Source: Leptolyngbya sp. 'hensonii' (GTDB taxonomy: Bacteria; Cyanobacteriota; Cyanobacteriia; GCF-001939115). Taken from it: a stretch of DNA of 64,000 bases. The translations under genes and the position numbers were made by a program. The stretch covers positions 1-64,000 of the forward strand of contig NZ_MQTZ01000005.1 in assembly GCF_001939115.1 (NCBI RefSeq). The letters are read 5' to 3'. The notes beneath the pieces are model-generated. The model worked only from the letters and a program-made list of their open reading frames with translations. It searched no databases and was not told the DNA's origin. Of this stretch, positions 38,934 to 43,607 are shown piece by piece. Position 1 is the stretch's first letter; each line of letters starts with the position of its first letter.

Positions 38934-39356
38934 ATGTGGCGCAAGCTTACGAGCCTTTTTCATAGCCTCAGTAGCTACTCTGACCTGAGTCCCGACTTAG
39001 GTATGCGGCGTAGGATCAACCAAGCCCTGAGGAGCCGACCTTCCCTGGCACCCAGCGAATGGTACGAGTATTTCTGGCGACAACGGGGGGTATCCAGGGA
39101 TGTTGCAGCGCTGATTTACACGCGCATGGAACATTACTCTGGGCTTAATTTTTCCAGGGTGGTTCCGGGCGATCGCCTGGAGGAAGATTTGAAAATTTCC
39201 CTGGTGTCCTGGTTCGACTGGCATTTAAGTCTCTGTGATGACTTCCAGCAGAAGTTTGGGGTGGATTTGAGTGAATGCTTCGACCTGCATGCCCTCAAAA
39301 CTGTGGAGGAGTTAATGCTATTCCTCGATCGGCAACTCTTGCCGATCAACCATTAA
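38934..39356 (+). CDS. Hypothetical protein, DUF1493-like
   Basis: A protein of 140 residues. The middle and end (DRLEEDLKISLVSWFDWHLSLCDDFQQKFGVDLSECFDLHALKTVEELMLFL) resemble the acyl-carrier-like pattern of DUF1493 proteins (DLG..G.D......FEEKFGVD), but the phosphopantetheine Ser is not evident. Role unknown. ATG 38934 is the first start; the ribosome site is weak. It precedes the chaperone operon by about 185 bp and may be independent. Confidence 0.6.
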   Translation: MWRKLTSLFHSLSSYSDLSPDLGMRRRINQALRSRPSLAPSEWYEYFWRQRGVSRDVAALIYTRMEHYSGLNFSRVVPGDRLEEDLKISLVSWFDWHLSLCDDFQQKFGVDLSECFDLHALKTVEELMLFLDRQLLPINH

Positions 39357-39541: not shown

Positions 39542-40411
39542 ATGCAAACCGAAAAGAGTAAGCTTCTGCGTTACCTCCGAAAGTTCTGGCTCTGGTACGT
39601 GCTGGGTTTGGGGTTGCTCGCTTTTGCAGTTCTGGTGATGGCCCAACAGGCCTCACCCCAGGCATCCGCAGATACCCGGTTAATTGTTGTGGCCATCTAT
39701 CTCCTGGCTGTCTGCGCCTGCTTTATCGTTCCCTATACGCAGCAGATGGATCAGGAGGTGCTGGAAGCCTTACCCCGCTCCCTGGAAGATCTGAGAAAGC
39801 TGGGGCGAGAGTACTACAAAAATACCAGCGCCATCCAGGATAACAGCGCTTTGGTCGAGCGGTTACAGGCGACGATCGCCCAGGAAAGTCCAGCCCTACT
39901 AGAAGTTAAACAGGCAATGGACGAGCTTTTAATTCGCCAACGCCAGGAAAATGCCAACCTCAAACGTGAAGTTGAGGATTGGGTCGCATCGGTGATTCAC
40001 TTTTTCCGATTACTGGAACGGGCTCTGATCTATGAACAGGGTCTGGACAGTCGGGCTACCTTGGAAAAGCTCTTACAGGAGTTTGCCCATACCTGTAGCA
40101 CCCGGGGGCTGGAACGGATTCTGCCGGTGGCCAATGATACCCTGGATGCCCGTTTCCACGCGGTGATTGGGGAAGAAGCTGTGTCTGAGCAACCGTCAGG
40201 CCAGATTCTCCGATGTGAGAGCTGGGGATACCGACTGGGCTCAACTGTGATTGAGCGGGCCAAGGTGGTGATTACCCGGTCCGAGGCTGCGATCTCAGAA
40301 CTGGTAGAACTGGACTCAGGGGCGGCTAATCCGGCGTTGGATAGGAGTTCCATGGTATCTCTCATTGAAGTAGACCTGGCAAATCTGAAAGGAAAAGAAG
40401 CCCATGAATGA
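39542..40411 (+). CDS. Membrane-anchored GrpE-like nucleotide exchange factor
   Basis: From ATG 39542: two TM helices (about 17-34 and 48-66), a helical stalk (about 75-145), then a GrpE-type C-terminal domain (about 145-255): FFRLLERALIYEQG in the dimer helix, ARFHAVIGEE (the FDP..HEAV site), SGQILRCESWGYRLGSTVIERAKVVITRSE, matching the GrpE beta-wing. Canonical GrpE is soluble; two N-terminal membrane helices are unusual. The Hsp70 gene starts 8 bp before its stop, so the two are translationally coupled. The first in-frame start (TTG 39503) is rejected for lack of similarity. Likely role: releasing ADP from the adjacent Hsp70 at the membrane. Confidence 0.78.
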   Translation: MQTEKSKLLRYLRKFWLWYVLGLGLLAFAVLVMAQQASPQASADTRLIVVAIYLLAVCACFIVPYTQQMDQEVLEALPRSLEDLRKLGREYYKNTSAIQDNSALVERLQATIAQESPALLEVKQAMDELLIRQRQENANLKREVEDWVASVIHFFRLLERALIYEQGLDSRATLEKLLQEFAHTCSTRGLERILPVANDTLDARFHAVIGEEAVSEQPSGQILRCESWGYRLGSTVIERAKVVITRSEAAISELVELDSGAANPALDRSSMVSLIEVDLANLKGKEAHE

Positions 40412-42149
40412 TTTTGCAGTTGGCATTGATCTGGGTACATCCACATCGGAAATTTGCATCTATAAGAATCACGATGCAGTCCCCCTGCCTGACCCGATTA
40501 CGAAGATGCCGATCGTGCCCTCGATCGTGGCTGTGAACCGCAATGGCGAGCTGCTTGTCGGGGAAGCGGCCCGGGGGCTAGTGGATGTGGCGGGCCAGGG
40601 GATTCGAGAAGTCAAGCGCAAAATGGGCAGCAGCGAAACGGTTTGCCTGTTTAAGCAGGGCTATCGTCCGGAAGAAATCTCAGCCCTGATTTTACGAAAA
40701 CTAAAAGAAAATGCCGAGGAAGCCCTGGGGGCAACAATTCGGGATGTGGTGCTATCCGTGCCAGCCAATTTCCCCGATGCTGCCCGCCAAGCGACGTTGA
40801 ATGCGGGTAAATTGGCTGGCTTGAATATCCTGCGCCTGATCAATGAGCCGACTGCCGCAGCTCTGGCTTTTGGGATCAAAAATATTGAGGCCGAAGAACA
40901 ACTGGTGGTCTTCGACTTTGGGGGAGGCACCCTGGATATTACCGTGCTGGAAATGGTGGCAGGGGTGTTGGATGTGAAGTCCAGCTTTGGCAATCCGCAA
41001 TTGGGGGGAAAGGACTTTGACGAAGCCTTGATGGCCCTGATTCGGGAAAAGTTTACTGCTGAGCACCCAGGTGCAGAAGTTTCGGATATCTCCCTGCGAC
41101 ATCTGAAGGAGGTGGCTGAAACAACCAAGAAAGTCCTCTCGAACCAGCGATCGCACGAAGTCCGCATTCCCTTCTTTGCAGCTCAGGGGGGTAAGCCGGT
41201 GGATCTGGAGGTGGAAATTACCCGGCGGGAATTTGAACAGGCGATCGCCCCATTGCTGGATCAGGCCCGGGACTGTGTGAATCAGGCGCTTAAGGCCAAG
41301 AAACTGCGGCCTGAGGCGATCGATCGGATTCTCCTGGTAGGCGGGACCACCTACATTCCGGCAGTGCGGCAACTGGTGTTTGAGATCTTTGGCAAGGAGC
41401 CCAAAGCGGATGTCAACCCTGACTTGGCGGTGGGCATGGGAGCCGCAATCCAGGCGGCGCTGGCGAAAGGTCTGATCAGCGAGGAATCCGGCGTGATCCT
41501 GACCGATGTTGCTCCCTTTGGTTTGGGAATTGGTGCCCTGACCCTGGTGGGCCGACAACCCATGATGAGTTATGACGCCCTGATTCAGCCCAATACCACC
41601 ATCCCCTATTCCGTGAAGCGGGAGTACAGCCTGCTCCATGCGGAGCAGCGCCAGGTAGAACTTCGCCTGTACCAGGACCATACTGGCAATGCCCGGCTGC
41701 TCTCAGAGGTGGTAGATACCGGCATTGTGGGGGAGATCACAGATATTCCTCCGGCCCCGGATGGTAAGCCCTATCCGGTAGAGGTTGAGTTCTCCTACGA
41801 TATCAACGGCATTGCCAGAGTCAAAGCCTCGATTCGGGCCATTGGTAAGAGTGTGGAAATTGCCTATGGCCAATCCGACAAGCGCATGGATCAGCAGGAG
41901 ATGACCCAGGCTGCAGGACGGATTCGGGATCTGTGGCGGCAGAATGCCAAGGCCAGACAGTACGAAGGGTTGATCGATCGGGCAGAGCGGTTCATGGCAG
42001 CAATTCCTCCAGATGAGCGATATCCCCTCTCTGATGTTGTCCTGGATTTGAAGGCTGCTCTGGCGGCAAATAATGCTGAGCAAATCGAGGCTGTGGGCGA
42101 TCGGTTGGTGGACCTGATGTTTGACCTGGACGATGGCCTGGGAGGATAA
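40404..42149 (+). CDS. Hsp70-family chaperone, HscC-like
   Basis: ATPase domain 1-380: GIDLGTSTSE (8-17), INEPTAAALAFG, VFDFGGGTLDITVLE, GGKDFDEAL and LLVGGTTYIPAVRQ. The substrate domain contains ILTDVAPFGLGIGAL, QPNTTIPYSVKREYS and EFSYDINGIARV. Length 581 aa is shorter than DnaK (about 640); the lid is short and no EEVD-like tail is present. Spacing and motifs (ILTDVAP, FSYDINGI) agree better with HscC-type Hsp70 than with DnaK1-3. It overlaps the membrane GrpE-like gene by 8 bp and precedes the J/TPR gene by 3 bp, so the operon encodes a complete Hsp70 cycle set. Confidence 0.9.
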   Translation: MNDFAVGIDLGTSTSEICIYKNHDAVPLPDPITKMPIVPSIVAVNRNGELLVGEAARGLVDVAGQGIREVKRKMGSSETVCLFKQGYRPEEISALILRKLKENAEEALGATIRDVVLSVPANFPDAARQATLNAGKLAGLNILRLINEPTAAALAFGIKNIEAEEQLVVFDFGGGTLDITVLEMVAGVLDVKSSFGNPQLGGKDFDEALMALIREKFTAEHPGAEVSDISLRHLKEVAETTKKVLSNQRSHEVRIPFFAAQGGKPVDLEVEITRREFEQAIAPLLDQARDCVNQALKAKKLRPEAIDRILLVGGTTYIPAVRQLVFEIFGKEPKADVNPDLAVGMGAAIQAALAKGLISEESGVILTDVAPFGLGIGALTLVGRQPMMSYDALIQPNTTIPYSVKREYSLLHAEQRQVELRLYQDHTGNARLLSEVVDTGIVGEITDIPPAPDGKPYPVEVEFSYDINGIARVKASIRAIGKSVEIAYGQSDKRMDQQEMTQAAGRIRDLWRQNAKARQYEGLIDRAERFMAAIPPDERYPLSDVVLDLKAALAANNAEQIEAVGDRLVDLMFDLDDGLGG

Positions 42150-42152
42150 GCG

Positions 42153-43607
42153 ATGGCTTTCGAGCTGTACCACACGCTGGATATTTCCCCCCAGGCAGCA
42201 CCGGATGAAATCAAAAAGGCTTACTATCGCCTGGTGCGCAAGTATTCCCCGGAGAAAGAACCGGAGCGTTTCAAGCAGATTCGGGAAGCCTATGAAACCC
42301 TGTCTGACCCTAAAGCCAAGCAGAACTATGATGATCTGCAACAGCATGGGGAGGAAATTGATCAGTTCTTGCGCCAGGCAGAAGACCATATCCAGCAGTC
42401 GGAGTGGGAAAAAGCAATTCGCCTGCTAAAACGAGTGCTGGTCCTTCTCCCCGGTTCAGAAGCAGCCCGCAACCGTTTGGGCATCTGTTACATTCACAGC
42501 CAGCAATGGGAACAGGCGATTAAAGTCTATGAAGCCCTGACCCGCCACAGTCCGGAGGTGCCGCTCTACTGGTTTAACTTCGGGGCCATTTATGACCGCT
42601 GGGCGCTGAGCCTGAAAGACAAGGATGAACAGAACGAGCGGCCCCATCTGTATCAACAGGCTCGGGACTACTATCAGAAAGCGATCGCCCTGGAAACGTT
42701 CAATGCGGAGCCCTATCTGGCGATCGCCGAAACCTATCTGGACCAGAGTCAGTACAGCGAGTCGATTACCTGGGCAGAGCGGGCTATGGAGGCCGATGGT
42801 CAGATCGACTACTCTGACTTCGAGGCTCTCATTTTTATTTGTAAAGTTTATCTCTATAGTAATGAGTTAAAGGGGATTGAGACCATTGCCCGGCGGATTC
42901 AATCTCTATTGCCGGACAGTGAAGATGCCCGCAAGTATGCAGCCAATCGGTTTGCGGCTCTGGGTTATGACCTGGCCAAGGCGGGTCTGAACAATGCCAG
43001 TGTGCCATTGCTCCAGGCAGCGATGAGTTTTATTGAATCTGCCAGACGGTTTGATCCGAATGACCAAGGGATTCAAAAACTCCACTGGAATGTGGCCGAA
43101 ATCATCCGCGGGTTTAAACAGTATGAGGTTTTGAAAGAGGATACCCAAATCGTCCATAGCCTGAAACGGCTCTCTGCGCTCTGTATGATGGCGACCCTAG
43201 GCTATGCGGAGGCTACCGAGGTGGACAAGCTCTACGGGGATATTTTTGTCGAGATGCGATATTTCCCAGAAGCAGCCATTCTCAGTTCAGTCCGCCGGAT
43301 CCGCTCCCAATATCCTGCGATTTATCGATTGAATAAAACCCTGTTTGATGAAATTGAGACCGGCATGACTGGTCGCTTGCCCACTCCAGCGCCAGCCAGG
43401 GCTGCACCAACCGGCTCAGCCCAGCGCTCCGCTGGGAGAGGACCCACTCCAAAACCGCCCTCCCTCTCTCAAGGCAAATTACAACGGCTTTGGGCCGGGA
43501 TTGGCCTGATGGGTTTCGGGGTCTTCCTATTTATGATTATGGGGGGATCCTGGTTTGGATTTTTCTGCTTTATTGTGGGTTTTGGCCTGATGCTGGGCAA
43601 CCGCTGA
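42153..43607 (+). CDS. Membrane-anchored J-like/TPR protein with altered HPD motif
   Basis: Residues 1-65 form a J-like domain (ELYHTLDISPQAAPDEIKKAYY...FKQIREAYETLSDPKAKQNYDDL) in which the essential HPD is S32-P33-E34. A TPR array occupies about 70-300 (WEKAIRLLKRVLVLLPGSEAARNRLG and further repeats), then a helical region, a Pro/Ala linker, and two TM helices at about 443-482. With the upstream membrane GrpE and Hsp70 genes this makes a membrane chaperone triad. Altered HPD is also known in J-like partners of HscC, so the protein may still recruit this Hsp70. Confidence 0.85.
   Translation: MAFELYHTLDISPQAAPDEIKKAYYRLVRKYSPEKEPERFKQIREAYETLSDPKAKQNYDDLQQHGEEIDQFLRQAEDHIQQSEWEKAIRLLKRVLVLLPGSEAARNRLGICYIHSQQWEQAIKVYEALTRHSPEVPLYWFNFGAIYDRWALSLKDKDEQNERPHLYQQARDYYQKAIALETFNAEPYLAIAETYLDQSQYSESITWAERAMEADGQIDYSDFEALIFICKVYLYSNELKGIETIARRIQSLLPDSEDARKYAANRFAALGYDLAKAGLNNASVPLLQAAMSFIESARRFDPNDQGIQKLHWNVAEIIRGFKQYEVLKEDTQIVHSLKRLSALCMMATLGYAEATEVDKLYGDIFVEMRYFPEAAILSSVRRIRSQYPAIYRLNKTLFDEIETGMTGRLPTPAPARAAPTGSAQRSAGRGPTPKPPSLSQGKLQRLWAGIGLMGFGVFLFMIMGGSWFGFFCFIVGFGLMLGNR

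Follow-up and report, generated by a model that had tools for sequence, protein, structure and literature searches.

The cyanobacterium Leptolyngbya sp. 'hensonii' was found to carry, within a 64,000-nucleotide stretch of contig NZ_MQTZ01000005.1 (hereafter the window), a cassette of three genes encoding a GrpE-like protein, an Hsp70 and a protein that joins a J-like domain to TPRs (J/TPR). This triad probably represents a dedicated Hsp70 machine of the HscC type, encoded by one travelling cassette, usually tethered to the membrane and equipped with a private exchange factor. The components, their folds, their linkage, the clade of the Hsp70 and the co-occurrence of a linked GrpE with a GrpE-signature loop are established. 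No such cassette was found described in the open-access literature on HscC, GrpE, membrane-anchored GrpE, cyanobacteria and Planctomycetes, subscription papers lying outside the scope of the search.

Gene layout and recurrence of the cassette

The cassette spans positions 39542-43607 in the order grpE-like, hsp70, J/TPR (Table 1). The first two genes overlap by 8 bp (ATGAATGA) and a gap of 3 bp separates hsp70 from the J/TPR gene; order, coordinates, overlap and gap had all been given correctly in the original prediction. Around it lie housekeeping genes (EPSP synthase, SpoT/RelA and cytochrome b6f), and the housekeeping chaperone cluster of this genome (C50) is likewise ordered grpE-dnaK-dnaJ. 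Directly upstream of the triad lies a gene for a 140-aa protein that had no significant match in Pfam; judged by eye it bears a faint likeness to acyl-carrier protein, and it was absent beside the other triads.

Table 1 Coordinates of the features described. Positions in the window are numbered from its first nucleotide; L numbers denote the loci inspected in other genomes.
Feature	Source	Position	Strand	Basis or description
GrpE-like nucleotide-exchange factor	window	39542..40411	+	PF01025, AF2 model, Foldseek, hydropathy
Hsp70, HscC-like, soluble, 581 aa	window	40404..42149	+	PF00012, trees and AU tests, alignment with E. coli DnaK, HscC and HscA
J/TPR protein	window	42153..43607	+	PF00226 and TPR families, AF2 model, Foldseek, J-domain alignment, hydropathy
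Conserved C-terminal tail of Hsp70	window	42100-42149
140-aa protein	window	38934-39356
In-frame TAA, codon 197 of J/TPR	G278	L033:9780-9782
Defence-type neighbours	G278	L033:2506-13427		cas1-cas2, CRISPR-like repeat array, TdeIII-type type II RM system
Defence-type neighbour	G382	L053:1705-6564		NB-ARC/APAF1_C protein
Defence-type neighbour	Calothrix MAG	L062:2737-6421		TPR-CHAT protein
Defence-type neighbour	Anabaena	L034:12113-12823		PADLOC candidate PDC-M52A/B
Defence-type neighbour	G938	L140:709-4524		probable CHAT protein, by C-terminal motif
HTH-GrpE fusion		L079:6381-7073
HTH-GrpE fusion		L080:6545-7225
HTH-GrpE fusion		L081:6439-7122
HTH-GrpE fusion		L082:517-1194
J-GrpE-Hsp70 set	Nostoc sp. 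UHCC 0302 plasmid	L100:2212-8214
J-GrpE-Hsp70 set	Acaryochloris plasmid pMB01	L108:1-4621
J-GrpE-Hsp70 set	Planctomycetota G386:C85	L083:6088-8460

Six cyanobacterial genomes have the three genes side by side, and four genomes of Planctomycetota have them either complete or cut off. Besides the window, the order GrpE - Hsp70 - J/TPR occurs in G278, G066 (Anabaena sp. UHCC 0187), G382, G938 and G939, while a Calothrix MAG has Hsp70 - J/TPR at the start of a contig. Among the Planctomycetota, G588 carries a complete triad, G633 has two tandem J/TPR genes, the GrpE gene of G386 is cut by the contig end, and G400 has the order J/TPR - GrpE - Hsp70, with a GrpE gene that lies beneath an antisense ORF and was revealed by the PF01025 search. 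The linkage of the trio, which recurs in further loci of these two phyla, thus exceeds chance, and the conserved gene order that had been predicted was borne out by the neighbourhood scan at this depth of sampling (Cyanobacteriota and Planctomycetota). Two loci call for comment. In G633 the first gene had no Pfam match and an hhalign probability of 4%, and its position, two predicted transmembrane (TM) segments, length and architecture point weakly to a GrpE. The J/TPR gene of G278 contains an in-frame TAA, the remaining frame being intact and conserved, which may reflect a broken gene, a sequencing error or a recent loss.

The cassette is rare, occurring in about 1% of the genomes sampled. 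A search of 291 cyanobacterial genomes with the GrpE-like protein gave two close relatives beyond the genome's own (40% and 37% identity); weaker GrpE matches elsewhere in the phylum were set aside, the neighbourhoods inspected being mostly housekeeping grpE-dnaK clusters. J/TPR was found in 4 of 386 genomes in the cyanobacterial search and in 4 of 294 genomes of Planctomycetota. A profile built from the J/TPR alignment matched J-domains in 323 genomes and, among the matches listed, the full-length protein in 2 of the 390 genomes of the class. A genome-wide named scan with strict patterns returned five loci, including Bacillota fragments with a 33-34% match, and tblastn against plasmids with the GrpE-like and J/TPR queries disclosed no triad. 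Since every host searched has a separate GrpE with a stronger match, the triad comes on top of the housekeeping system.

The exchange factor, the Hsp70 and membrane anchoring

The 289-aa product of the first gene matched PF01025 at 44.6 bits (E 1.6e-11), above the Pfam gathering cut-off of 25.8; its relatives in other triads scored 46-54 bits. In its AF2 model two hydrophobic helices stand at the N-terminus; the remainder comprises one very long coiled-coil helix, more helical structure and a beta domain of six strands, and pLDDT is about 95 over the GrpE part (residues 121-250). When this model was compared with the PDB by Foldseek, the best twelve matches were all GrpE (1dkg, 9a81, 3a6m and 4ani among them), the top one being the GrpE-DnaK complex 1dkg (E 3.6e-8). 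The assignment of this gene as a GrpE is thereby confirmed. The two N-terminal TM helices foreseen for it are borne out by hydropathy, with Kyte-Doolittle values of 2.24 for residues 15-33 and 2.67 for residues 47-65, both above the threshold. A typical GrpE is soluble, and the TM segments are a difference from such proteins, no bar to membership of the GrpE fold family. The start of the protein is rich in K/R, the loop between the helices is nearly uncharged and K/R residues follow the second helix; this pattern suggests an N-in/C-in topology, with the GrpE domain predicted to face the cytoplasm. Identity to housekeeping GrpEs is 14-19%.

The same genomes encode other GrpE-like proteins that are unlinked to Hsp70, namely short forms and fusions of an N-terminal helix-turn-helix domain to a diverged GrpE domain. 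The fusion is kept in several Nostocales with no linked Hsp70 gene, and it is possibly a transcription factor built on the GrpE fold.

The Hsp70 of the window matched PF00012 (E 1e-115). Its one hydrophobic stretch lies at the interdomain linker; otherwise no TM segment was seen, and the protein is soluble, as had been proposed. In the preferred tree, with DnaK as outgroup and the long-branch rows excluded, seven triad Hsp70s formed one clade (support 100/99), sister to seven HscCs (99/98), which were themselves monophyletic without the triads (100/98); the Hsp70 of the plasmid type described below branched next to HscC and the triads, and the DnaKs stood on the opposite side (100/100). A tree rooted on YegD-like sequences placed the triads at the base and was set aside in favour of one without these rows, because the long branches met there. 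Grouping of the triads with cyanobacterial DnaK1-3 was rejected by the AU test (p 7.2e-9), grouping with all DnaKs gave p 0.0075, and the score of the window Hsp70 against TIGR02350 (403 bits) lay below the cut-off of 823. The original prediction had named two outcomes that would count against it, a first gene product without the GrpE fold and an Hsp70 inside DnaK1-3 with an unconserved gene order; neither occurred.

Alignment with E. coli DnaK, HscC and HscA disclosed several traits common to the triads and HscC, namely a deletion at DnaK 76-101, the L1,2 insertion, a shortened lid and loss of D477. The GrpE-signature loop (DnaK 290-295) is of full length in the triad Hsp70s, whereas HscC and HscA have it in shortened form or not at all. 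One of the two salt-bridge pairs of the cleft is also retained (R/K55-E267, lower nucleotide cleft), and R56 is lost in every triad Hsp70 except that of G400. Monophyly of HscC and the retained loop exclude assignment of the triad Hsp70 as a true HscC. The prediction of a greater resemblance to HscC than to DnaK therefore holds as to proximity, but the protein belongs to a sister clade and keeps the GrpE-signature loop. A 2021 review argues from the absence of this loop and of the cleft salt bridges that HscA and HscC work without GrpE (PMC8215388); the loop retained in the triads fits with a linked GrpE, and both observations point the same way. The GrpE and Hsp70 trees agree in branching order for G588, G386, G382, the window and G278 with Anabaena, although the support of some forks is modest and G633 was not placed. 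Since reviews state that Hsp70s of the HscA and HscC types manage without a nucleotide exchange factor (PMC8215388), an Hsp70 that is sister to HscC and linked to its own GrpE makes this statement directly testable.

TM segments, called from hydropathy and sequence only, differ between loci. Among the nine complete ones, five have a GrpE with two TM helices (the window, G278, Anabaena, G588 and G633) and four a soluble GrpE, with a coiled-coil-like N-terminus instead in G382, G938 and G939 and a length of 156 aa in G400. The J/TPR protein ends in a two-helix hairpin in the window, in one TM segment in G588, G400 and both G633 copies, and in a CFI-box-CTERM domain in Anabaena and G386 (NF041770, E 3.6e-21 and 5.9e-24), G278 having the same kind of sequence; no tail was detected in G382, the Calothrix MAG, G938 and G939. 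By hydropathy the cassette is thus wholly soluble in G382, G938 and G939. The description as a membrane machine suits the window, with its two-TM GrpE and hydrophobic J/TPR tail, but does not extend to those three loci or to the GrpE of G400. Because both elements vary in this way, predicted anchoring is frequent and present in two phyla, but it does not define the cassette.

The J/TPR protein and its motif

The third protein matched PF00226 over its J-like domain (residues 5-60; 58.8 bits against a cut-off of 27.8, E 5.9e-16) as well as TPR families. Its AF2 model has the J-domain fold (helices 4-8, 17-30, 37-51 and 53-81) followed by a high-confidence TPR superhelix at about 65-407, for which Foldseek gave TPR matches. 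After a linker, residues 443-483 are continuously hydrophobic and long enough for a hairpin of two helices, in agreement with the two-TM tail proposed for this end; here the evidence is hydropathy, model confidence being low over the segment. Two conserved stretches were noted in passing. One, ADGxVDFxDF, lies within the TPRs (residues about 213-225 in the window) and is present in nearly all triad J proteins; it resembles half of an EF-hand loop, but the first acidic positions are missing and calcium binding is for this reason not claimed. The other, L.D.(L/M)(F/Y)D.(E/D), forms the C-terminal tail of the triad Hsp70s, was absent from the DnaK and HscC sequences compared, and is a candidate docking peptide for the TPRs.

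The HPD motif, on which the original prediction was silent, is absent from all 13 J-domains examined. It is replaced by SPE in the window, Anabaena, G278, G938 and G939, by PPE in G382, Calothrix, G386 and G588, by TPE in G400 and by PPH in both G633 copies, while the DnaJ and a CbpA-like protein of the window genome keep HPD. Like the J partners of HscC, E. coli DjlC among them, the triad J-domains have a short loop between helices II and III and the pattern xP(E/D).DP..F..(L/I)R.AYE, and the motifs of HscC partners likewise depart from HPD (HPE in DjlC; RPD, DPQ and DIE in others). The proline, nearly always the Glu, and a basic helix II are conserved in the triad J-domains across two phyla, which argues for a function. 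The J/TPR tree was poorly resolved.

According to a 2026 review, ATPase stimulation is abolished by any replacement except HPE, and it is enigmatic whether deviations from HPD are accidents or selected (PMC13254874). The prediction that the three genes encode all parts of an Hsp70 cycle is accordingly sound as regards the GrpE fold, the Hsp70 and the J/TPR protein, but unproven as regards the cycle, since no J-domain of the clade has HPD and only HPE is reported to be tolerated. DnaK R167 and Q378, which read the Asp of HPD, are replaced by L/R and H/R in the Hsp70s of G588 and G633 and retained in the remaining triads; the changes in these two cases may represent co-variation or loss of contact.

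Proposed cycle, alternatives and known systems

From these data we infer that the parts are co-localised and run such a cycle, that the TPRs choose the clients and that the non-HPD J-domain is active. In the window both co-chaperones would be seated in a membrane, be it the thylakoid or the plasma membrane, with their working domains on the cytoplasmic side. The TPR superhelix may select clients, dock the Hsp70 or do both, and the short-loop J-like domain would trigger ATP hydrolysis on its cognate Hsp70, the Glu of SPE perhaps taking the role of the HPD Asp as in the DjlC-HscC pair. The membrane-held GrpE would then free ADP and client. With the co-chaperones held on the membrane, each loaded Hsp70 would finish its cycle at one place, and the cycle could run without competing for the DnaK, DnaJ and GrpE in general use. 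Other lineages would have exchanged the anchor (CFI-box tail, single TM) or lost it.

The absence of HPD from all members can also be read as an inactive J-like domain of the type IV or Pam16-like kind, so that J/TPR merely tethers or restrains the Hsp70 and a housekeeping J protein or the client triggers hydrolysis. HPN or QPD kills activity, Pam16, whose HPD is mutated, inhibits its partner Pam18 (PMC13254874), and the altered R167 and Q378 in G588 and G633 fit this explanation. However, both residues persist in the other triads, the kept proline, basic helix II and nearly kept Glu look like selection for contact with Hsp70 and not like decay, and HscC partners deviate from HPD too, yet HscC is stimulated by DjlC (PMC8215388). 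An inactive J-domain is for us the less likely case, though one to be taken seriously. That the triad is a recently duplicated accessory copy of ordinary DnaK/GrpE/DnaJ, with a membrane anchor added and no distinct role, is suggested by its three components and by the identical order of the housekeeping cluster in this genome. It seems barely credible in view of the exclusion of DnaK1-3 by the Hsp70 tree (p 7e-9), the low identity of the GrpE to housekeeping GrpEs, and a J protein with TPRs and neither G/F nor Zn domains nor HPD.

Neighbouring genes raise the question of a chaperone of defence or stress islands, controlling a large sensor or effector (NB-ARC, CHAT) or serving anti-phage defence, as DnaJ mediates the sensing of phage by bNACHT25 (PMC12169576). 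Defence-type genes adjoin the triad at five loci (Table 1), and the distribution of the cassette is patchy. The neighbours nevertheless differ at every locus, those in the window are housekeeping genes with only weak PADLOC matches, and genes of these kinds are abundant in Nostocales, so we consider this role very improbable. None of the three triad proteins matched a PADLOC model, and identification of the triad as a known anti-phage defence system was rejected on this ground.

A dedicated, HscC-type machine is the preferred explanation. The triad would act as a cross between HscC-DjlC, which it resembles in substrate domain, J type and tail anchor, and DnaK-DnaJ-GrpE, which it resembles in having a private exchange factor. 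It belongs to neither, as its Hsp70 stands outside both the HscC and the DnaK clades and has the GrpE loop that HscC lacks. With HscC and its E. coli partners DjlB and DjlC (Kluck et al. 2002, as reviewed in PMC8215388) it shares, beyond the sister Hsp70 clade and the traits listed above, a nearby-encoded, short-loop, non-HPD J partner with a C-terminal membrane tail in the window, DjlC being tail-anchored (PMC8215388). HscC has no GrpE signature and is predicted to work independently of GrpE, and no GrpE gene adjoins it in E. coli or in the annotated plasmid loci inspected, whereas the triad has its own, often membrane-anchored GrpE and keeps the loop; the J motif of the triad is SPE or PPE where DjlC has HPE, and TPRs are added. 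The housekeeping GrpE-DnaK-DnaJ system resembles it in the three functions, the GrpE fold, the GrpE-signature loop and often the gene order, but has an Hsp70 of another clade; the GrpE of the triad is diverged and carries TM helices, and its J/TPR protein replaces the J-G/F-Zn-CTD architecture of DnaJ.

Among eukaryotic systems, the PAM import motor of mitochondria (mtHsp70, Pam18/Pam16 and Mge1) also has an Hsp70 served by two J proteins held at the membrane and by a homologue of GrpE, and one of its J partners, Pam16, lacks HPD; Pam18, however, has no TPRs, the triad has no linked translocon, and Mge1 is soluble, unlike the GrpE of the window. DNAJC7 and DNAJC3 (P58IPK, which was among the Foldseek matches) unite a J-domain with TPRs in a single protein, but they are eukaryotic, have a canonical HPD and no linked GrpE, and their TPRs stand before the J-domain.

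More tentatively, and with somewhat less confidence than is placed in the machine itself, the triad may be proposed as a third kind of dedicated Hsp70 machine in bacteria, next to HscA-HscB and HscC-DjlB/C. Its Hsp70, sister to HscC, would have retained or reacquired a GrpE of its own, usually membrane-embedded, and its J-domain of the (S/P/T)P(E/H) type would drive the cycle. If so, the HPD rule would hold for pairs of the DnaK type without being general to J-domains. The lack of HPD in every copy makes the cassette a clean test of that rule, for which three small proteins suffice.

The plasmid tblastn with the Hsp70 query also brought to light a second self-contained set, distinct from the triad, in which the genes for a 98-aa J-like protein, a soluble GrpE and an Hsp70 stand in that order. 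It was found on two cyanobacterial plasmids and in one planctomycete (Table 1), and TPR genes adjoin it in both plasmid copies. Its J motifs again depart from HPD (PAH and SPE), that of the planctomycete copy being SPE as in the window. The Hsp70 reading frame is interrupted on Acaryochloris pMB01, and further Hsp70 matches occur on two other plasmids of Acaryochloris.
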